IMG/VR virus record: IMGVR_UViG_3300050023_000090
Span: 1 to 51,637 of that record
Direction: 5' to 3' (one strand)
Source: a virus
DNA: 51,637 nucleotides
A program made the position numbers and the translations under genes. Below, piece after piece: positions 1-51,637 of the stretch; the stretch's first letter is position 1; the number at the start of each line of letters is the position of its first letter. The notes beneath the pieces are model-generated. The model did no database searches and had not been told where the DNA came from. It was given only the letters and a program-made list of their open reading frames with translations.

Positions 1-126
1 TCTGAAGAACGCAATCAGGCGCGCAGACCGAGACAGCGATCCACACCTCGCGTCAATCCTTCGAGACTTGGCATCCGGTGCGATCGAAGTAGTCGAACGC
101 ACGCCCCCCGAAGCGCACGCCGAGGC
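1..126 (+). repeat. 126-bp direct repeat of 50860-50985
   Basis: Bases 1-126 match 50860-50985 exactly and then diverge. The last 24 bases (103-126) are also shared with 51595-51618, which continues identical to this end as far as 145. The contig ends therefore meet at a 24-bp repeat and not at a simple long terminal redundancy. Confidence 0.9.
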
Positions 127-550
127 GGGGGATGCGAAAGCCCTGGTATGGATTCGCAAGAAGCTCGGCTTGCCAGAAGATGCCCAGATGTTCAGAGGGT
201 CGGACACGATTGCGGGAAAACTGCACAACCTGTGCTTTGACGCCCACGGCTATCAGACCTACATCGTCGCGTACAAATGCGATGACAAACAAGGTGAGAT
301 TGCAAGGCTTACCGTAAGAGCCGAACGCGCCGAGGACAGAATCAAGGAATTGGAAGCTCGCGTCCCCGCCGCGATCCCCGAGGGACTGTTGGAGCTTCTC
401 AAGGATGCGATGCAACTACTTCACGGGGTAGGAATGTGGAAGCACCAGGACATCGAAGACCAGTGGAGAATGAGCTACAAGGAAGTAGCTGAACGATACG
501 CCGCCCTGCGCGCCTCCCCCTCAGCGCCAAGTGAGGGAGTGAGAGAATGA
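2..550 (+). CDS. C-terminal part of hypothetical coiled-coil protein (5' end cut by contig end)
   Basis: The frame is open from base 2 to the TGA at 548-550. On a circular map the true N-terminus is the frame beginning at 51425, giving a protein of about 205 residues joined at 145/146. The stretch before base 103 instead duplicates the gene at 50837, so the first 34 codons here may be a misassembly or a recombinant. After the PPEAHAEAG linker the protein has a mixed domain and a helical, charged segment (AERAEDRIKELEARV) likely to form a coiled coil. I recognise no family. Its stop overlaps the next start as ATGA. Confidence 0.6.
   Translation: MKNAIRRADRDSDPHLASILRDLASGAIEVVERTPPEAHAEAGDAKALVWIRKKLGLPEDAQMFRGSDTIAGKLHNLCFDAHGYQTYIVAYKCDDKQGEIARLTVRAERAEDRIKELEARVPAAIPEGLLELLKDAMQLLHGVGMWKHQDIEDQWRMSYKEVAERYAALRASPSAPSEGVRE
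103..145 (+). repeat. 43-bp identity with the right end of the contig (51595-51637)
   Basis: The final 43 bases of the window are identical to 103-145, in the same reading frame of the same apparent protein. This is what a circular or circularly permuted molecule gives, and it implies a closed length near 51,492 bp. Confidence 0.85.
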
Positions 551-1155
551 AGGTTATACCCTGCACGATCTCGCGCGCAAAGGAAATCGTGCGCCTTTAT
601 CATCGACACAATCGGCCTCCCGTCTCTGGCCTATTTGCTATGGCCGCCGAGCTTGACGGCGAGACAATTGGGGTTGCTATCGTCGGCCGTCCCGTCGCAC
701 GGGCTTTACAGGACGGCTTCACTGCAGAGGTTACGAGGACTTGCACCCTCCCCGGGGCACCGAAAGGTGCCGTCTCTTTTCTCTACTCCGCCTGCCGCCG
801 GGCCGCGTTCGCCCTCGGCTATCGAAAGCTCATCACATACACACTGGCGTCTGAGAGTGGGGCAAGCCTCCGGGGAGCTGGATGGCAGATGGAAATGGAA
901 TTGAAGCCACGGCCGGGGTGGGACGCGCCATCACGGAAAAGAGGAGAGGGAACGGTGGATAACGTTGCAAAGCGCAGATGGGCCGCCACAGAGAGATGGC
1001 TTGCCAATCTCCAACCCCCAGAGCTGATAAGGGATTCGTGGGCAAGTGATCCCGACGACGACTTCAAGGGAATGTACGGAACTTCGAAGCCTGCCTCAGA
1101 AGAATCGACCAATGCCAAGACCCCCGAACCGCCGCAAGGGGAGGCCGGGGCGTGA
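547..1155 (+). CDS. GNAT-fold protein of the XF1762 type, Mom-like acyltransferase fold
   Basis: A 202-residue protein. The pattern HRHNRPP near residue 20, AIVGRPVAR in the middle and RRAAFALGYRKLITYTL followed by SLRGAGW is that of phage proteins usually called XF1762 family, which have a GNAT acetyltransferase fold related to the Mu Mom DNA-modification protein. Substrate is unknown; DNA modification is an inference from fold and from the neighbouring methyltransferase-like gene. ATG is fixed by an ATGA overlap with the preceding stop. The last ten residues PEPPQGEAGA come from a 36-bp repeat that also ends the next gene. Confidence 0.75.
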   Translation: MKVIPCTISRAKEIVRLYHRHNRPPVSGLFAMAAELDGETIGVAIVGRPVARALQDGFTAEVTRTCTLPGAPKGAVSFLYSACRRAAFALGYRKLITYTLASESGASLRGAGWQMEMELKPRPGWDAPSRKRGEGTVDNVAKRRWAATERWLANLQPPELIRDSWASDPDDDFKGMYGTSKPASEESTNAKTPEPPQGEAGA

Positions 1156-1156
1156 G
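1121..1156 (+). repeat. 36-bp stop/RBS/start repeat, copy 1
   Basis: Identical to 1777-1812. In frame it encodes the C-terminal tail PEPPQGEAGA and TGA stop of the upstream gene. It also contains a purine-rich ribosome site (AAGGGGAGG) and the GTG start of the downstream gene in a GTGA overlap. Both copies serve the same role at consecutive gene junctions. Confidence 0.95.
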
Positions 1157-1811
1157 GATTCTCGTGGCGTGCGAGTTCAGTGGTATCGTCCGAGAAGCCT
1201 TCCGCGCTCGGGGACACGATGCGTGGTCGTGCGACCTTCTGCCTACCGAGAAGCCGGGACCGCACATCATGGGCGATGTTCTGGACGTGCTCGGCGACGG
1301 ATGGGATTTGATGATAGCGCATCCGCCGTGCACGCATCTTTGCGTCAGCGGGGCGCGCTGGTGGAAAGAAAAGATTTCAGACGGACGACAGGCCAGGGGC
1401 GCGGAGTTTTTCATGCGATTTGTCAACGCACCTATTCCAAGAATTGCCGTTGAGAATCCAATAGGTGCCATGTCACGTCTGTACCGGAAGCCAGATCAGA
1501 TCATTCAACCGTTTTGGTTCGGCAATAGCGTGCAGAAGGCAACGTGCCTATGGTTGAAGGGTCTTCCTCAGCTCGAAAAAACAAACGTTGTGGATCGAGG
1601 AATGATCTACGTAGACCCTCGCGGTCACAAGCACGGTGGGGAGTTTACCATTCGAGGGAAGCGCGCCTATTCACCGTTGATGCTCCTTCCAAGGAGTGAA
1701 GGCCGCTGGGCGATACGGAGCCGGACGTTCCAAGGCATCGCCGATGCGATGGCTGAACAGTGGGGTTCCCTCCACTCCCCCGAACCGCCGCAAGGGGAGG
1801 CCGGGGCGTGA
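1152..1811 (+). CDS. C5-cytosine-methyltransferase-like protein (copy 1)
   Basis: A 219-residue protein of a family common in phages. The N-terminus RILVACEFSG is a SAM-binding-like start. HPPCT (about residues 57-61) corresponds to the catalytic PCQ loop of C5-cytosine methyltransferases and VENP to their motif VI. QGIADAMAEQW near the end resembles motif X. It is much shorter than ordinary C5 enzymes, leaving no obvious target-recognition domain, so activity and specificity are uncertain. The start is GTG at 1152, overlapping the previous stop within the 36-bp repeat. A paralog is at 43028. It ends with the same PEPPQGEAGA tail as its neighbour. Confidence 0.7.
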   Translation: MRILVACEFSGIVREAFRARGHDAWSCDLLPTEKPGPHIMGDVLDVLGDGWDLMIAHPPCTHLCVSGARWWKEKISDGRQARGAEFFMRFVNAPIPRIAVENPIGAMSRLYRKPDQIIQPFWFGNSVQKATCLWLKGLPQLEKTNVVDRGMIYVDPRGHKHGGEFTIRGKRAYSPLMLLPRSEGRWAIRSRTFQGIADAMAEQWGSLHSPEPPQGEAGA

Positions 1812-1812
1812 G
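1777..1812 (+). repeat. 36-bp stop/RBS/start repeat, copy 2
   Basis: Perfect copy of 1121-1156. Here it supplies the tail and stop of the methyltransferase-like gene and the ribosome site and GTG start of the 58-residue gene that follows. The bases flanking the two copies differ, so the similarity is confined to this unit. Confidence 0.95.
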
Positions 1813-1984
1813 CGCGACAAAGAGCGAGTTGAACGTCCTGTATTGCGCCTACTATTGGGCTGACAACCCTACCGACAGGACGGCCAAGAAGGCGCTATGG
1901 GATGCGGTGCAAAAAGACAGACATGATACAGAGCGCCGTGTCGAGAGGCATTTTGCTAAGAAGCCGAAGGAGGCGCAAAGATGA
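1808..1984 (+). CDS. hypothetical protein, 58 aa
   Basis: Starts with GTG at 1808 in a GTGA overlap provided by the 36-bp repeat. The product is charged and mostly helical (RTAKKALWDAVQKDRHDTER) and has a basic C-terminus. No family recognised. Its stop overlaps the next ATG. Confidence 0.65.
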   Translation: MSATKSELNVLYCAYYWADNPTDRTAKKALWDAVQKDRHDTERRVERHFAKKPKEAQR

Positions 1985-4438: not shown

Positions 4439-5028
4439 TCCCCGGCCTGATCCACGTAATGCGTGATCCCTCCAGCGTGGACGGTACTGCTATTATTACG
4501 GGCCTCGAAAGGCTGTCGCAATACATTCTTGATGCCTCGGGCCGCGGCCTCGTGATGTACGAGATTGGATCCTTCGCGGGAGAGGGCGCTGAAATCTTTG
4601 CTCGCTACTTCTCCGAGGTTCACTGCGTCGATCTCTGGGACACGTATCCCCTCACCGGGGCTGTCTCCAAATACACCTGGCCCCAGATCGAAGCCTCCTT
4701 CGACGCGAGATGCGCCTCCGCAAAGAATATCTTCAAGCATAAGGGGGACGCCACTGAGGTTGCCAAAACCGTCCCCGATGAAAGTCTCGATTTCGTCTAC
4801 ATCGATGCGGATCACAAGTACGCCTCTGTCATGAAGGATCTCACTGCCTGGGTCTCCAAAGTAAGGCCCAATGGCTTCATTGGAGGCCACGACTATACCT
4901 TCTACACAATTGATGTTGTGCGGGCGGTGACTGACTTCTTCCGCTTCAAAGACGACGATGAGATCGTTCTCTTCCATGACGGTTCCTGGCTTCTTCAAAA
5001 GATTCCCAAATCGGAGGCAACAAAATGA
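4435..5028 (+). CDS. class I SAM-dependent methyltransferase (Methyltransf_24-like)
   Basis: A 197-residue Rossmann protein. EIGSFAGEGAEIFA (from residue 43) is the SAM-binding motif I, VHCVDLW the acidic strand 2 motif, and FVYIDADHKY the motif typical of the Methyltransf_24 group. GGHDY follows as expected. The acceptor is unknown. I chose ATG 4435 because it makes the ATGA overlap seen throughout; a GTG at 4423 with AAAGGAG upstream would add four residues. Probably works on the same target as the radical SAM and glycosyltransferase-like products. Confidence 0.8.
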   Translation: MIPGLIHVMRDPSSVDGTAIITGLERLSQYILDASGRGLVMYEIGSFAGEGAEIFARYFSEVHCVDLWDTYPLTGAVSKYTWPQIEASFDARCASAKNIFKHKGDATEVAKTVPDESLDFVYIDADHKYASVMKDLTAWVSKVRPNGFIGGHDYTFYTIDVVRAVTDFFRFKDDDEIVLFHDGSWLLQKIPKSEATK

Positions 5029-7258: not shown

Positions 7259-9841
7259 ATGAAACGCTTTTCCCGAAATGGAATCTCGCTATGCTCTAAA
7301 TGTGCATTACGCGACAGGCCCCGGGTGTGGGATGAGTATCCTGAAGACGGAACCTGCAACATCGCCTTGGTTGGGGAAAGCGCAGGACAAGTAGAAAGTG
7401 AGAGGAAGCGCCCCTTTGTGGGTCCCGCGGGAGGAACCTTGAACATGGGCCTCCACGAAGCGGACCTTCCTCGGCAGCGTCTCTACATTGCAAACCTTGT
7501 AAGTTGCCATCCCCCCGACGATGACCTCGACTCTTACGAAGGACAGGAAGCCTTGAAGTGCTGCGCTCCTGGATTCAAAGCGTCGATGGCAAACGCAAAA
7601 AAGAGGGGTGTCAAAGTCGTGATGCCCCTTGGAAATAATGCTCAGAATCACGGCTTTGGCATCACGACAAAGATCCACAAATCTCGCGGCTCCGTCTATG
7701 AGAAGGACGGGTTCCTTATCATTCCCACTTTCCATCCCTCCTTTATTTTAAGGGGTGCTCGTGAAGAGGAGGGAACATGGATAGGGGACTTTAAGAAAGC
7801 GAAGGAAATTGCCTCCACAGGATGGAAACCTCCAAAGGAAAACTTTGATCTCTTCCCTTCTCTGTCTTCGCTCCAACTCTTTGCAGAAGAAGCCCTGAAG
7901 TACAAAGGTCCAATGGGTGTGGATCTCGAAACAACAAGTCTCTCTCCCGCAACGGGACGCATTGTCGTCATAGGACTTTCCATTCCCAAGCGCACTATTG
8001 TCATTCCCTTTCTAAAGCAATACGGATATGCCTACTGGCCTATTTCTCAGTTGAATGCGGTAAACGCAATAAATGCACGTCTCATGAGGGAGAAGGAATG
8101 CATTTTCCAATTTGGAAACGGTGTGGACCTGCCCTTCCTCTTCTATAATCGCTTCCCTGTTTTGAAGACTCCCCACGATGTTTGTATTGCTCATCATGTT
8201 ATTCATCCGGAAATCCCACATAACCTTGGTTATATCGTATCCGTATACGGCTCGACGCCTTATTGGAAAGATGACATGCTTCTTCGTGAAGAAACAATTC
8301 TCCAAATGGAAGACATTAAACTCAGGACTTACAACGCGCGAGACGCTGCGGTCCTTCTTGAAGTCCTTCCAGGGCTTCTTTCTGATCTTGACGAGTTTCA
8401 TCTTCGCCCTATTTATGAGGAAATCTCCCGTGAGTTGATCCTTCCTTGTCAGGAAATGAACACCAACGGAATGCTTGTTGATCAACCTGCGTTGAAGAAG
8501 TGGAAACATTCTCTCGTTGCGAAGAAAGCCTACTACAAAGGAGAGATTCATCATCTTTGTGCCCTTCATGAAGGTTTTTCTCTCACCTCTGACGAAGATT
8601 TGCGCCTCCTTGTTTACGGAGCAATAGCTCCTAAGTTCCTTCGCGCCCAGCGCGAAATGGAAGAATATATGGACGAAACTCGCAAGCGTCCCCTGAGAAG
8701 GGACACCGCGCGATACAGAGAAATAGGCAGACTTGTCTCCATCGCGGAGTCAACGCATCCTCTCTATCAGACAAAGGGAAAGATTCGTACTACAGACAGC
8801 GGAAAATATTCCGTAAAGGAAGAAGTCCTCCTCTCTCGAAGAATTGCTTGCAACAACAGGCTTCTTGCCATAGATGGATTAAAGCAAAAAGATGCCTCTG
8901 CCGAACGCAGAGATATTGAGAAGACTTTGAAGTTCTTCGAGCTTCTCCTCAACTTCAACGAAGTGGACAAGCTCATTACAACCTATACGAAGTTCCCTAT
9001 CTGGCCGGATGGGAGAGTTCACCCCATCTATTCCCCTATGGGAACGAACACGGGACGCCTTGCTTCAGAAAGACCCAATGGGCAGAACATTCCTGAAGAG
9101 GCAAGGAAGATTTTCTACACAAAGGGCCTTTTCGTAGGTCCTGATTTCTCGAACCTCGAAGTGCGTATCATTGCTTATGCTTCAGGTGATAAGGCTTTCA
9201 TAAAACTTTTCAAGAAGAACGGAAACGTGCACGATCAGAATACAATCGATCTTTTCGGGATCGACAAATCTTCTCCCATGTGGGACTTGGCAAGAAAAGC
9301 AGCAAAGAAGTATATGTTCGGAGGCAAAAGTTATCTTGGAAGCCTCTACAACATTTATACGAAGATGTTAATCGAGTGTCCTGATCTGAAAATTACTTTC
9401 GCCGAGCTGAAAAAACTCGATGCACGATTTGATTCAAAGCACCCTGAGATGATCGCCTATCAGAAGAGAATGCAAGAAATAGGGAGGACTGAACGCCGCG
9501 TAGAAAACGGCTTCGGTCGTGTACGCATCCTTCTTGGAGACGACTCTGACATAGAAAGAGAAGCGGTGAATACTCCCATTCAAGGAACAGGGGCGGACAT
9601 CACAAACAAGGCGATGATCGCAATTTACAAGGAACGCAACAAACTTGGTCTCAAGGCGCGTTTCTGTCTCCAAGCGCACGACCAACTTATGATGGAATGC
9701 CCCAAGTCCGAACTCGTTCAAATCAAACGCATCATGAGGAAGCACATGGAAATGACCCATCATCTCTGGGGCCGCGATGTCTCCTTCCCGATTGAAATGA
9801 AGATCGGTACGAACTGGGGCGACCTCAAGGAGACGAAATGA
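7259..9841 (+). CDS. uracil-DNA glycosylase (family 4-like) fused to family A DNA polymerase
   Basis: An 860-residue replicative polymerase. Residues 1-190 look like a family 4 Fe-S uracil-DNA glycosylase: C12, C15, C83 and C101/C102 as cluster ligands, GESAG plus RPFVGPAGG, and FHPS near residue 160. Residues about 215-380 are a 3'-5' exonuclease: D221 and E223 in VDLETTS, GNGVDLPFL, and YNARD. The polymerase follows, with DFSNLEVR (D629), the O-helix RKAAKKYMFGG with F687 at the position of E. coli 762, and HDQ at 807-809. ATG 7259 has GGAGG five bases upstream. All catalytic residues seem present, so it should replicate, proofread and recognise uracil. Confidence 0.93.
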   Translation: MKRFSRNGISLCSKCALRDRPRVWDEYPEDGTCNIALVGESAGQVESERKRPFVGPAGGTLNMGLHEADLPRQRLYIANLVSCHPPDDDLDSYEGQEALKCCAPGFKASMANAKKRGVKVVMPLGNNAQNHGFGITTKIHKSRGSVYEKDGFLIIPTFHPSFILRGAREEEGTWIGDFKKAKEIASTGWKPPKENFDLFPSLSSLQLFAEEALKYKGPMGVDLETTSLSPATGRIVVIGLSIPKRTIVIPFLKQYGYAYWPISQLNAVNAINARLMREKECIFQFGNGVDLPFLFYNRFPVLKTPHDVCIAHHVIHPEIPHNLGYIVSVYGSTPYWKDDMLLREETILQMEDIKLRTYNARDAAVLLEVLPGLLSDLDEFHLRPIYEEISRELILPCQEMNTNGMLVDQPALKKWKHSLVAKKAYYKGEIHHLCALHEGFSLTSDEDLRLLVYGAIAPKFLRAQREMEEYMDETRKRPLRRDTARYREIGRLVSIAESTHPLYQTKGKIRTTDSGKYSVKEEVLLSRRIACNNRLLAIDGLKQKDASAERRDIEKTLKFFELLLNFNEVDKLITTYTKFPIWPDGRVHPIYSPMGTNTGRLASERPNGQNIPEEARKIFYTKGLFVGPDFSNLEVRIIAYASGDKAFIKLFKKNGNVHDQNTIDLFGIDKSSPMWDLARKAAKKYMFGGKSYLGSLYNIYTKMLIECPDLKITFAELKKLDARFDSKHPEMIAYQKRMQEIGRTERRVENGFGRVRILLGDDSDIEREAVNTPIQGTGADITNKAMIAIYKERNKLGLKARFCLQAHDQLMMECPKSELVQIKRIMRKHMEMTHHLWGRDVSFPIEMKIGTNWGDLKETK

Positions 9842-47928: not shown

Positions 47929-48107
47929 AAAAGAAAACAGATCCAGATACGAAGATCATCTTCAAGCGAGAAGTCATTTCGTGCCTCTCGACCGGGTGCC
48001 CTAACAAAACTACTCGAACCGTTCGCCAACCGGGAACGACTATCGTTCTTTGTGAGTTTCACTTGAGAAAGGTAATGGGCTATCTGCAATGGGCCAAAAC
48101 AGAATGA
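47925..48107 (+). CDS. zinc-finger-like protein, 60 aa
   Basis: ISCLSTGCPNKTTRTV and LCEFHLRKVMGYL give a C-x5-C and C-x2-H pattern resembling small phage zinc fingers. A basic N-terminus (MKKKTDPDTKIIFKREV). ATGA overlaps with both neighbours, including the nuclease gene. Confidence 0.6.
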   Translation: MKKKTDPDTKIIFKREVISCLSTGCPNKTTRTVRQPGTTIVLCEFHLRKVMGYLQWAKTE

Positions 48108-49027
48108 AAAAGTTTCCTCTTCCCCTTATCCCCACCGGCGCCTCCGAGAGCGGCTCTCACTACACCGGCCTCTTCGCCAATTGCAGCTGGAAGTTTTATA
48201 TGCGCTTCGTCCGCGGGTGGAAGCCCCTCAAGACCTCTTCTCCCCTTCTGAATGGATCCTGTTTCCACTTCGCGAAGGCTGTCTTCTACGCGACAGGCTC
48301 CCAGAGTGAAGCCCTCAAGGCAGTGGCCAGGTTTCTTGCAACGATGCGCAAAGAGTACGAAAGCGAAGACGAACTCAATCTTGCCCGCCTGCGTCTCCCT
48401 TCGATGGTCTCCTCATGGATTGCCAAATACGGCTTCCAGGACTTGAAGAGGTATACCTTCCTTGAAATCGAGAAGGAGCACTCCATCACGCTCCTTGGCG
48501 GCTTCCGCTTCACCTTCCGTCTCGATGCCCTCGTTCGCGACCGCGACAAGAACCTCATCATCCTGGAGACGAAGACCTCGGGATGGCGCCCCGAGCTGGC
48601 CGAGCTGGAGATTTTCAACGGCGACCAGGCAACCGCCTATGTAGCCTCTGTCTCCGAGCTGTACAAGACGCCTCCCAAACGTATTTATCTCCTGCCTGAC
48701 ATAACCTCGTGGCCGAAGAAATCCACGAAGGTCTCCCAGATCAACTGCTATCGAGGCGAACTTGTCCAGAGGACCGAGAAAGACATCGAAGAGTGGAAGC
48801 TGGGCAAGTCAAACGAGCTGGCTGAAATATCTCAGAAGGTCGAAGCCCTCAAGACTCACTCGGAGTATGCTCTCTTCAGACGGAATACTTCCTGGTGCAC
48901 CTCTTTTTCTCGTCCGTGCGAGTTCATCTCCGTATGCAGGCAACGCTTTCCCGCAGGGCATATCCCCTACGGCTTCCGGAAAGATTCCGACCTCCCCGAC
49001 TTGTTCCCCAAGAAAGGAAAGAAATGA
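48104..49027 (+). CDS. Cas4/AddB-like Fe-S PD-(D/E)XK exonuclease, 307 aa
   Basis: FRLDALVRD and LIILETKTSG give the D and ExK of the PD-(D/E)XK nuclease fold, with HFAK near residue 55 as the Cas4-type helix. C27 with C265-x6-C272-x5-C278 at the C-terminus are the four ligands of the AddB/Cas4 4Fe-4S cluster. Expected to resect DNA ends for recombination with the Sak4-like ATPase at 49669. ATGA overlap at its start. Confidence 0.82.
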   Translation: MKKFPLPLIPTGASESGSHYTGLFANCSWKFYMRFVRGWKPLKTSSPLLNGSCFHFAKAVFYATGSQSEALKAVARFLATMRKEYESEDELNLARLRLPSMVSSWIAKYGFQDLKRYTFLEIEKEHSITLLGGFRFTFRLDALVRDRDKNLIILETKTSGWRPELAELEIFNGDQATAYVASVSELYKTPPKRIYLLPDITSWPKKSTKVSQINCYRGELVQRTEKDIEEWKLGKSNELAEISQKVEALKTHSEYALFRRNTSWCTSFSRPCEFISVCRQRFPAGHIPYGFRKDSDLPDLFPKKGKK

Positions 49028-49316: not shown

Positions 49317-49669
49317 AAAGCGATAATGAAATGGCCGAGATCGCCCGTCTCTTCTACGATGCATACATGGAGGCCGCTGAAGAGGCCAAACCCGGCTCCG
49401 CCGACCGCCTGAAGGTTGCCTTCCACGGCATCACCGCGGTCGGTGCTGCCTTTCTCGGATCCCTCATCGGTTCCTTCTATAAAGAGCGCCCCTGGAAGAG
49501 GCATGTCTTCTTCACTGGGATTGCGATGAAATCCCTCAAGATCGGCGTGGTCGGTCTCTTCCCGGGTGTCTTTACCAGACAAGAAGCTGTCTCCGCGTGG
49601 AACATATGCGCCGAGTCCCTTGTCAGGAGTCCAGAGTTTTTCCTTCCCGAAGAAAGCGAGGCCAAGTAA
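49313..49669 (+). CDS. hypothetical protein, 118 aa
   Basis: ATG 49313 follows CAGGAG and overlaps the preceding stop. Mostly helical (NEMAEIARLFYDAYMEAAEE) with a hydrophobic middle (VAFHGITAVGAAFLGSLIGS) that may be buried or membrane-facing. Located directly before the Sak4-like gene, with a TAATG overlap, so it may function in recombination or replication. Confidence 0.55.
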   Translation: MKSDNEMAEIARLFYDAYMEAAEEAKPGSADRLKVAFHGITAVGAAFLGSLIGSFYKERPWKRHVFFTGIAMKSLKIGVVGLFPGVFTRQEAVSAWNICAESLVRSPEFFLPEESEAK

Positions 49670-50364
49670 TGCCCTTCACCTCAAGCGAAGCCAAGCGCGT
49701 TCCCTTCTTTCCCTCCATCCTGCTCTCGGGTCACTCAGGCTCAGGGAAAACGTACAGTGCCCTCCTCATGGCGAAAGGATTCGGCGGAAAAGTCGTCCTG
49801 ATCGATACTGAGAACAAACGCGCCCTTGTCTACGCGAACCTCTTCAAGTTTGAGCACATCGTCTTTGAGGCTCCCTTCACCCCTGAACGCTGTCGGGAAG
49901 CGATGAAGCTCGCCATCTCCAAATCGCCCAACGTCATCATCTTCGACTCTGCAACGCATGAGTGGTGGGGGAAGGGTGGCATCCTCCGCGAGAAAGACGA
50001 GATGCCCGGTACGAACGATTTCGTGAAGTGGGGCAAACTAACCCCCCGTCACGAGAGCTGGGCGGGAATGCTTACAATCAACCCCAAGTGTTTCCACATC
50101 GTAACGTGCAGGGCGAAAGAGAAGTCGAAAATGAAGAAGAATGCCGAAGGAAAGCTCGAAGTCGTTCCTCTTGGGATGAAGCCCATCCAGCGCGACGACT
50201 TCGCTTTCGACTTCTCCTTCGGCTACCTTATTCAGCATGACTCTCACAAGATCAAAATCTTGAAATCCATCGAGGAGGCCCCCGAGCCTGACGGACTCCT
50301 CACTCCCGACTTCGCATCGCGTCTTGCCGCTTGGACTCTGATGAAGAAAGGAAAGGCGAAATGA
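49669..50364 (+). CDS. Sak4-like RecA-fold ATPase, 231 aa
   Basis: LLSGHSGSGKT (around residues 18-28) is the Walker A; NVIIFDSATHEWWGKGG the Walker B followed by the HEW-type segment common in phage Sak4-like single-strand-annealing ATPases. The start at 49669 shares its A with the previous TAA. Expected to load or anneal single-stranded DNA with the Cas4-like nuclease. Confidence 0.85.
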   Translation: MPFTSSEAKRVPFFPSILLSGHSGSGKTYSALLMAKGFGGKVVLIDTENKRALVYANLFKFEHIVFEAPFTPERCREAMKLAISKSPNVIIFDSATHEWWGKGGILREKDEMPGTNDFVKWGKLTPRHESWAGMLTINPKCFHIVTCRAKEKSKMKKNAEGKLEVVPLGMKPIQRDDFAFDFSFGYLIQHDSHKIKILKSIEEAPEPDGLLTPDFASRLAAWTLMKKGKAK

Positions 50365-50840
50365 CCGCATACCCTGTAACCAATCTATCCAGCAAGGGGG
50401 GGGAGATGCCGGAGCGTTGTCTTTGCACCTCTGACGAGAACGGTCCGCACTTCAACGGCTGTACCATCCACGGAAGCTACCATACCCCACCCGCCACCGC
50501 TGGCACTTCGCGCCATCATTCAGGAATCGGTAGATTGGTCTACGCCAGCGATACCGACGATATCGGCCAGTGCTGGTGTGGTGATTGCAGGGAATGGATT
50601 CCTGCCGACAAGTGGAACCAACCATGTCTCTCAAAACGGGAGAGGAGAAAGAAGAACCGACGAGTCTCCGCTGGCACCGAGGGGCCGGGGCTGAGAGAAG
50701 CGCTTGATCTATTGCGGCGTGTTTGCGAATGGCACGCGCAGGAGACCATATACCCGACTCCCGAATGTATCGGAGAGGCGCGAAGGTTTGTTAGGCGAAC
50801 AAACCTCGCCCTCGCCCGCGTGGAAGGAGAGAAGAAATGA
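50361..50840 (+). CDS. cysteine-rich hypothetical protein, 159 aa
   Basis: CLCTSDENGPHFNGCTIHG and CWCGDCREW indicate two zinc sites. The C-terminal half is helical and basic (LREALDLLRRVCEWHAQE). An in-frame ATG at 50406 is a second possible start. ATGA overlap with the Sak4-like gene. Confidence 0.6.
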   Translation: MTAYPVTNLSSKGGEMPERCLCTSDENGPHFNGCTIHGSYHTPPATAGTSRHHSGIGRLVYASDTDDIGQCWCGDCREWIPADKWNQPCLSKRERRKKNRRVSAGTEGPGLREALDLLRRVCEWHAQETIYPTPECIGEARRFVRRTNLALARVEGEKK

Positions 50841-51166
50841 AAGCAGTTGACGTGAAGATTCTGAAGAACGCAATCAGGCGCGCAGACCGAGACAGCGATC
50901 CACACCTCGCGTCAATCCTTCGAGACTTGGCATCCGGTGCGATCGAAGTAGTCGAACGCACGCCCCCCGAAGCGCACGCCGAGGCAGCTATCGAGAAGTT
51001 GAAGATGGACGCCGAGCACTTGCAGTATGAACGTGATGAGGCGCGGGAAAAGCTCGCCGCCATGGAAGCTCCCGTGGATTCATTAGGTGACCTACCCTCA
51101 TCGTGGCCAACCAACGAGGCAGAGAGCGCCGCCCTTTCAGAGGCGCGGAAGGAGAACACCCCATGA
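50837..51166 (+). CDS. hypothetical coiled-coil protein, 109 aa
   Basis: MKAVDVKILKNAIRRADRD is helical; after the linker PPEAHAEA a coiled coil follows (AIEKLKMDAEHLQYERDEAR). Its bases 50860-50985 are identical to 1-126, where the same N-terminal domain is joined to a different C-terminal one. ATGA overlap at both ends. Confidence 0.6.
   Translation: MKAVDVKILKNAIRRADRDSDPHLASILRDLASGAIEVVERTPPEAHAEAAIEKLKMDAEHLQYERDEAREKLAAMEAPVDSLGDLPSSWPTNEAESAALSEARKENTP
50860..50985 (+). repeat. 126-bp direct repeat of 1-126
   Basis: Perfect match to the left end of the contig. Ends at the 24-bp core (50962-50985) that is also present at 51595. See the entry at 1. Confidence 0.9.
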
Positions 51167-51435
51167 TGAGAGAGAAACTTGAAGCGCTGGCGAAGCATTA
51201 CGAGGATCTTGGTGAGCAGGCTTATCGCGTTAATCACGTCATACCTGATATGTACTTCGGACCAGCGCAAGCAATCCGCGCGATCCTCGCCGCCGAACCC
51301 GATCCTTACCTGCGCGATGCCGTGGTGGACATCGTCTGGTGGGGCGAGAGAATGCAACTCGGAGTTGACCACACGGCTGACCGCATCTGCGCCCTGTTTG
51401 AGGGGGGGGGGGGGGGAGAAAAGAATGGCAACTAA
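51163..51435 (+). CDS. hypothetical protein, 90 aa, with poly-G tract
   Basis: Starts MMREKLEALAKHYEDLGE in ATGA overlap. Globular helical part (VNHVIPDMYFGPAQAIRAIL) and then EGGGGGEKNGN, where five glycines come from a run of 15 G. Any slip in that run changes the C-terminus. The next gene starts 10 bases before its stop. Confidence 0.6.
   Translation: MMREKLEALAKHYEDLGEQAYRVNHVIPDMYFGPAQAIRAILAAEPDPYLRDAVVDIVWWGERMQLGVDHTADRICALFEGGGGGEKNGN
51402..51416 (+). repeat. homopolymer of 15 G
   Basis: Uninterrupted G15 near the end of the 90-residue gene, eight bases before the next ATG. It may serve as an unusually long purine ribosome-binding region; it is also prone to sequencing error and replication slippage. 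Confidence 0.9.
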
Positions 51436-51637
51436 GGGATACCTGATGCTACTCGGAGGGATGCGGGAAATTGAACGCATCCTAAGAGAGCGCATGCATG
51501 AGGATGAGGCTACGATCAAGGAATGTGGAGTCCCGATGCTCGTTGAATCCATGGCAGAGCAGATCGAGGAATTGAAAGCGCAACTGGCGGCTAAGCCCCC
51601 CGAAGCGCACGCCGAGGCGGGGGATGCGAAAGCCCTG
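51425..51637 (+). CDS. N-terminal part of the junction-spanning coiled-coil protein
   Basis: ATG 51425 after the G tract. Frame open to the window end, with a helical charged N-terminus (REIERILRERMHEDEATIKE) and a coiled coil before the linker PPEAHAEAGDAKAL. Joined in frame to 146-550 on a circle it makes about 205 residues. Confidence 0.6.
   Translation, partial: MATKGYLMLLGGMREIERILRERMHEDEATIKECGVPMLVESMAEQIEELKAQLAAKPPEAHAEAGDAKAL
51595..51637 (+). repeat. 43-bp identity with 103-145
   Basis: The right-end partner of the circular join. Its first 24 bases also equal 50962-50985, encoding the PPEAHAEA linker in the same frame in all copies. Confidence 0.9.

Follow-up and report, generated by a model that had tools for sequence, protein, structure and literature searches.

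A 36-bp direct repeat at two consecutive gene junctions as the probable flank of a one-gene module in a phage accessory operon

The window analyzed here, an IMG/VR virus record taken at its full length of 51,637 bp, contains a 36-mer (CCCCCGAACCGCCGCAAGGGGAGGCCGGGGCGTGAG) in exactly two copies, located in direct orientation at 1121–1156 and 1777–1812, where each ends one gene and begins the next. Judging from its position and from relatives of the adjoining genes, the 36-mer is probably a short direct repeat that flanks a one-gene module within an accessory operon of the phage; this module of 656 bp, a methyltransferase-like gene together with one copy of the repeat, would have been made, and would be removable, by homology-directed recombination. 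The features at these junctions are:

547–1155, plus strand: Mom-like/GNAT gene (phrog_1384, E = 1.5e-29)
1121–1156, plus strand: 36-bp repeat copy 1, carrying the Mom/GNAT-like 3' tail PEPPQGEAGA-stop, the Shine–Dalgarno (SD) sequence AAGGGGAGG, the GTGA overlap and the start of the next gene
1152–1811, plus strand: phage DNA-methyltransferase-like gene, the sole gene between the 36-bp copies (phrog_757, E = 6.5e-65)
1777–1812, plus strand: 36-bp repeat copy 2, carrying the methyltransferase-like 3' tail, SD, the GTGA overlap and the start of the 58-aa gene
1808–1984, plus strand: 58-aa gene, begun by copy 2 (VSATKSELNVLYCAYYWADN...)

Read in frame, the 36-mer encodes (S/T)PEPPQGEAGA-stop followed by a GGGGAGG ribosome site and a GTGA stop/start overlap. 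The upstream genes thus terminate in ...TPEPPQGEAGA-stop (547–1155) and ...SPEPPQGEAGA-stop (1152–1811), whereas the downstream genes start at 1152 and 1808, with 7 nt separating the SD AAGGGGAGG (GGGGAGG) from a GTG that overlaps TGA. The two copies are spaced by 656 and lie in unrelated flanks, the identity breaking off abruptly at both edges of both copies. Exact search and translation hence confirmed what the preliminary description had reported, identical units with these coding and start signals at two consecutive junctions between unrelated flanks. Scanning the whole record with the 22-base core at up to 3 mismatches returned the two copies only (reversed control, 0), as did an ungapped scan with the first 31 bases at up to 10 mismatches; shuffled 31-mers reach 19–21 matches. 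Based on the codon usage of this genome, selection on the peptide alone would yield the same ten codons by chance with a probability of about 10^-5.5. Since the synonymous positions are identical as well and the identity ends abruptly, the 36-bp identity reflects a duplication at the DNA level, giving consecutive genes with DNA-identical 3' ends of the type described for Island3 and Brujita.

Comparison with relatives indicated that neither gene family possessed the shared end ancestrally. Most of the 81 methyltransferase-like relatives end at about residue 205–209, 10–14 residues short of the end of the window protein, and this usual end point coincides with the start of the 36-bp repeat in the window gene. 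For the Mom/GNAT-like protein, residues ~149–202 (about 54, tail included) are missing from nearly all relatives (n = 70), and no relatives of this extension were found in annotated phages. The P/E tail, by the pattern used, was present in 0/81 methyltransferase-like and 0/70 Mom/GNAT-like relatives. As judged from these comparisons, the PEPPQGEAGA tails are additions to both genes. A paralogue within the same phage (43028–43651, phrog_757) ends in ...QWSNLK-stop without the tail; it contains a 49-bp stretch 82% identical to the 3' part of the first methyltransferase-like gene. The neighbourhood is likewise not conserved, as a methyltransferase relative occurred in the fetched flanks of only 1 of the 70 GNAT loci, at a distance of 2 kb. 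With added tails and a non-conserved neighbourhood, the unit between the 36-bp copies amounts to one gene plus one repeat, 656 bp in length. Furthermore, the fit of both genes to early-gene codon usage is poorer than that of most core early genes, which agrees with a recent arrival, and the block containing them looks recently assembled by these sequence measures.

A Mom-like gene in another locus (L003, 80% identical) ends in APEGEKHD-stop; a resemblance of this end to the 36-mer was rejected, because 988 of 3520 background gene ends score as well. The DNA upstream of it, at 4900–5002, seems to preserve part of a methyltransferase C-terminus (FMGSGTTGVACARLGRKFIGIG) and would be a further mosaic join.

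We infer that recombination made the 36-bp pair, in a step in which a gene would have been inserted at or near a gene junction, the sequence of which, from 3' tail through ribosome site to start codon, would thereby have come to lie on both sides of the new gene. Recombination between the two copies could then lead to gain or loss of the module with every gene left intact and presumably translationally coupled, because within each copy the stop is properly followed by a ribosome site and a start. The module-free form would have the Mom-like gene joined by one 36-mer to the 58-aa gene (VSATKSELNVLY...; computed join 1120/36-mer/1813). No relative with a single 36-mer and without the methyltransferase gene was found in IMG/VR, the 50 GNAT-bearing virus records or the fetched loci; an analogous alternative join, based on the assembly, is present at a second, 24-bp repeat in the same contig. 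The agent may be the phage's own exonuclease/AAA_24 (Sak4-like) system or host RecA, the phage candidates being:

48104–49027, plus strand: exonuclease, candidate recombination component (phrog_1218, E = 2.7e-18)
49669–50364, plus strand: AAA_24 ATPase, candidate recombinase (PF13479, E = 1.5e-8; phrog_1366; weak match to a Sak4-like annealing protein)

The ATPase gene lies just upstream of the repeat-bearing block. The phage also encodes a DUF669 protein, which could form one recombination set with the exonuclease and the ATPase. Elsewhere in the window, an 860-aa ORF (7259–9841) combines a uracil-DNA-glycosylase-superfamily domain with a family A DNA polymerase; peptide-pattern searches of IMG/VR through the DNA polymerase yielded no close relatives.

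The translation signals of the 36-mer suggest a different reading, in which selection keeps it identical as a translation-control motif similar to the start-associated sequences of Cluster K mycobacteriophages; its ribosome site would sit in a hairpin that ribosomes translating the upstream gene open. GGGGAGG is placed 7 nt before GTG, and the predicted fold pairs CCCCG with CGGGG, shutting the ribosome site in a stem. This fold is however no better than that of shuffled sequences (z = -0.3), so that its strength is what composition predicts and a special RNA hairpin was rejected. The 36-mer moreover does not recur upstream of many genes in the manner of start-associated sequences: only two copies exist, other overlapping junctions of the same operon lack it, and the identity reaches upstream of any translation signal. 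We thus regard this reading as unlikely, though it is the strongest of the alternatives.

The second repeat, a 24-mer (GCCCCCCGAAGCGCACGCCGAGGC) found at 50962–50985, 51595–51618 and 103–126, sits within genes as the linker PPEAHAEA and not at gene junctions. The features around the contig ends are:

50962–50985, plus strand: 24-bp repeat, left copy, in gene A (50837–51166), encoding PPEAHAEA
50986–51618, plus strand: 633-bp polymorphic segment, comprising the 3' part of A, all of B (51163–51435), the 5' part of C and one repeat copy
51595–51618, plus strand: 24-bp repeat, right copy, in gene C (51425 through the contig end to 550), encoding PPEAHAEA
103–126, plus strand: 24-bp repeat at the contig-start junction, encoding PPEAHAEA; same circular-genome position as 51595–51618
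1–550, plus strand: alternative in-frame A–C fusion spanning the contig start (190 aa once 50837–50859 is added)

Bases 1–126 are identical to 50860–50985 and bases 103–145 to 51595–51637, so two joins can be read from the contig. In the long form the circle closes at 51594/103 with 51,492 bp and genes A, B and C, whereas in the short form, given by the contig-start join 50961/103, the same upstream DNA runs straight past the 24-bp repeat with 633 bp less, the segment 50986–51618 being missing. Both forms are in frame; in the short one, A contributes its first 42 codons, which the common PPEAHAEA linker connects with the remainder of C. Although classed as linear, the record closes to a circle at 51594/103, its first 102 bases representing the alternative join. 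Because the 126-bp shared stretch far exceeds the 24-bp repeat, the two joins in this assembly apparently represent real strain-level variation in the sample, that is, a module with and without its gene. Nothing else in the window points as strongly as these assembly-based contig-end joins to recombination between short repeats of this block, and the polymorphic segment looks like the same kind of module as the gene flanked by the 36-mer. No relatives of genes A and C were found in annotated phages. A run of ~16 G (51402–51417) lies just before the start of gene C; it may promote slippage, act as a strong ribosome site or be an artefact of sequencing.

Both the duplication and the contig-end joins might instead have been produced by the assembler or by amplification chimeras, as this is a metagenomic contig and the overlap between its right end and its start measures just 43 bp. 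Since the flanks of each 36-mer copy are unique and the genes there complete and intact, and since the 126-bp overlap at the contig start extends well past the 24-bp repeat, making a join through the repeat alone unlikely, we consider such an artefact improbable for either or both. Equally doubtful, in our estimate, is that the 36-mer and the 24-mer form one evolved set of in-frame coding joints of this phage lineage, used to shuffle both whole genes and halves of proteins in the accessory operon; no exchange through such joints would disturb the reading frame or the stop, ribosome site and start.

That two proteins with no other relationship agree in their last ten residues could also mean that PEPPQGEAGA is itself functional, serving to localise or stabilise the proteins or to bind a partner, and that this function led to its being copied or selected, a reading made very improbable by the relatives of both proteins that lack the peptide, by the codon-for-codon identity described above and by IMG/VR peptide-pattern matches that do not lie at gene ends. 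In these searches, any-codon patterns for PEPPQGEA and PPEAHAEA had 4 and 8 matches, respectively, none repeated within its own locus and none at a gene end, and were read as chance.

The preliminary description had further proposed a family of small elements, on the grounds that CCCCGAA, GAGGC and GGGG occur in both repeats in the same order and frame. The shared words are indeed there, but the likeness is weak: when the 36-mer was dinucleotide-shuffled 1000 times, 19 of the shuffles aligned with the 24-mer equally well. The 36-mer was searched for as DNA in exact and degenerate forms in IMG/VR, as its core in 50 GNAT-bearing virus records and as the exact core in the bacterial and archaeal genomes searched, and no further copy emerged; nor was it found as a sequence shared by module borders of several phages. 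The record showed neither a detectable integrase nor a resolvase, and the combination of a nearby recombinase with many cassettes at the same site, as in site-specific recombination systems, was not found. A dedicated, site-specific, cassette-like mobile element family with both repeats as members would account for two P/E-rich linkers with common words in one accessory block and for the apparent alternative joins at the 24-mer; given the missing copies at the stringency used, the marginal mutual similarity and the undetected integrase or resolvase, we hold it to be highly improbable, and as far as the searches reach, such a family is not supported. Of the modular gene-joining cassette suggested earlier, the modular joint thus stands, in line with the tail-free relatives, gene families that are almost never neighbours elsewhere and the apparent polymorphism at the 24-bp repeat, whereas the element family does not.

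Junction repeats unrelated in sequence to the 36-mer were observed in other phage loci. In L008, a GNAT gene (2292–2744) lies between 29-bp direct repeats (at 2258 and 2742) that consist of the opening codons of the gene downstream; the insertion would thus have rebuilt the start of that gene. The stretch 2258–2770 of L008 has similar counterparts in L006 and L011, with a GNAT/Mom-like gene and 25–29-bp direct repeats of the first codons of the next gene. From their sequence, repeats of the L008 type are apparently an independent insertion scar of the same gene family as the Mom-like/GNAT gene. L085 and L090 carry gene-end/start repeats between successive small genes, and in the row of small genes at 1300–2920 of L085, one junction after another has the same gene-end and start sequences (AAAGAAAGCGAGTGA...AAATGA).

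Across 135 non-redundant loci, 24 inter-gene repeat pairs were counted, and 6 of them had each copy at the 3' end of a gene, where random placement would give 0.35. After sequence had been added and the complexity filter tightened, the count was 5 of 25 where 0.29 was expected, from 3 of 175 stretches. Genes were called simply as the longest ORFs, the pairs are partly dependent on one another, with three belonging to L085, and diverged paralogues may be among them. Gene-end junction repeats are hence recurrent but rare in the loci examined, and what recurs across phages is, on these sequence comparisons, the arrangement and not the element. An automated search for empty sites in the fetched loci gave no clear module-free site, its output being mostly self-matches from tandem or longer imperfect repeats together with matches to near-identical loci.

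The 36-bp pair was most likely left behind when recombination placed one gene at this site, a process known to make phage genomes mosaic, and as a junction repeat it is a fresh example of an already known arrangement. Stop, ribosome site and start travelling together would explain how insertion and loss events are tolerated. Entry and exit of single genes without damage to their neighbours is usually deduced from the comparison of diverged genomes; here, one contig combines a fresh, undiverged gene-flanking repeat with what looks like a live polymorphism at another repeat, ~1 kb distant along the circle, making the short-homology recombination route directly testable from reads of the source sample.

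Several known systems resemble this arrangement in part. The PeSL mobile regulatory cassettes of T4-type phages consist of a promoter and a terminator stem-loop. They share with the 36-mer that small regulatory units lie at module borders, where repeats permit module exchange; the 36-mer differs in carrying translation signals, with no evidence for a terminator or promoter. The SAS/ESAS of Cluster K mycobacteriophages, which occur in many copies across the cluster genomes and have a proposed role in translation initiation (PMC3203893), are also short repeats bearing translation starts, this location being the sole likeness, whereas the 36-mer has two copies and reaches into coding sequence. 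Traces of homologous recombination at mosaic borders have been reported for temperate and defective E. coli phages with Rad52-like recombinases (PMC3945230), which similarly involve short homologous stretches and relaxed phage recombination; that homology is diverged, in contrast to the identical copies within one genome seen here, where the candidate recombinase is AAA_24/Sak4-like. Short conserved boundary sequences have been proposed to drive mosaicism in lambdoid phages, as cited in PMC3029335, and like the 36-mer they would guide module exchange by short homology at gene borders, although they are common to different phages and the 36-mer was found in this record only. The closest described case, by analogy, is that of genes 67 and 68 of mycobacteriophage Island3 (Cluster I1), which have a common 60-bp 3' end present as a single copy in Brujita, and for which deletion or acquisition by general recombination was proposed (PMC3029335). 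There, a single-copy relative is known and the shared piece is about 60 bp, whereas the 36 bp described here include the ribosome site and start; in both cases, the 3' ends of consecutive genes are identical or nearly so and enclose a single-gene unit, and recombination would act at the shared end.
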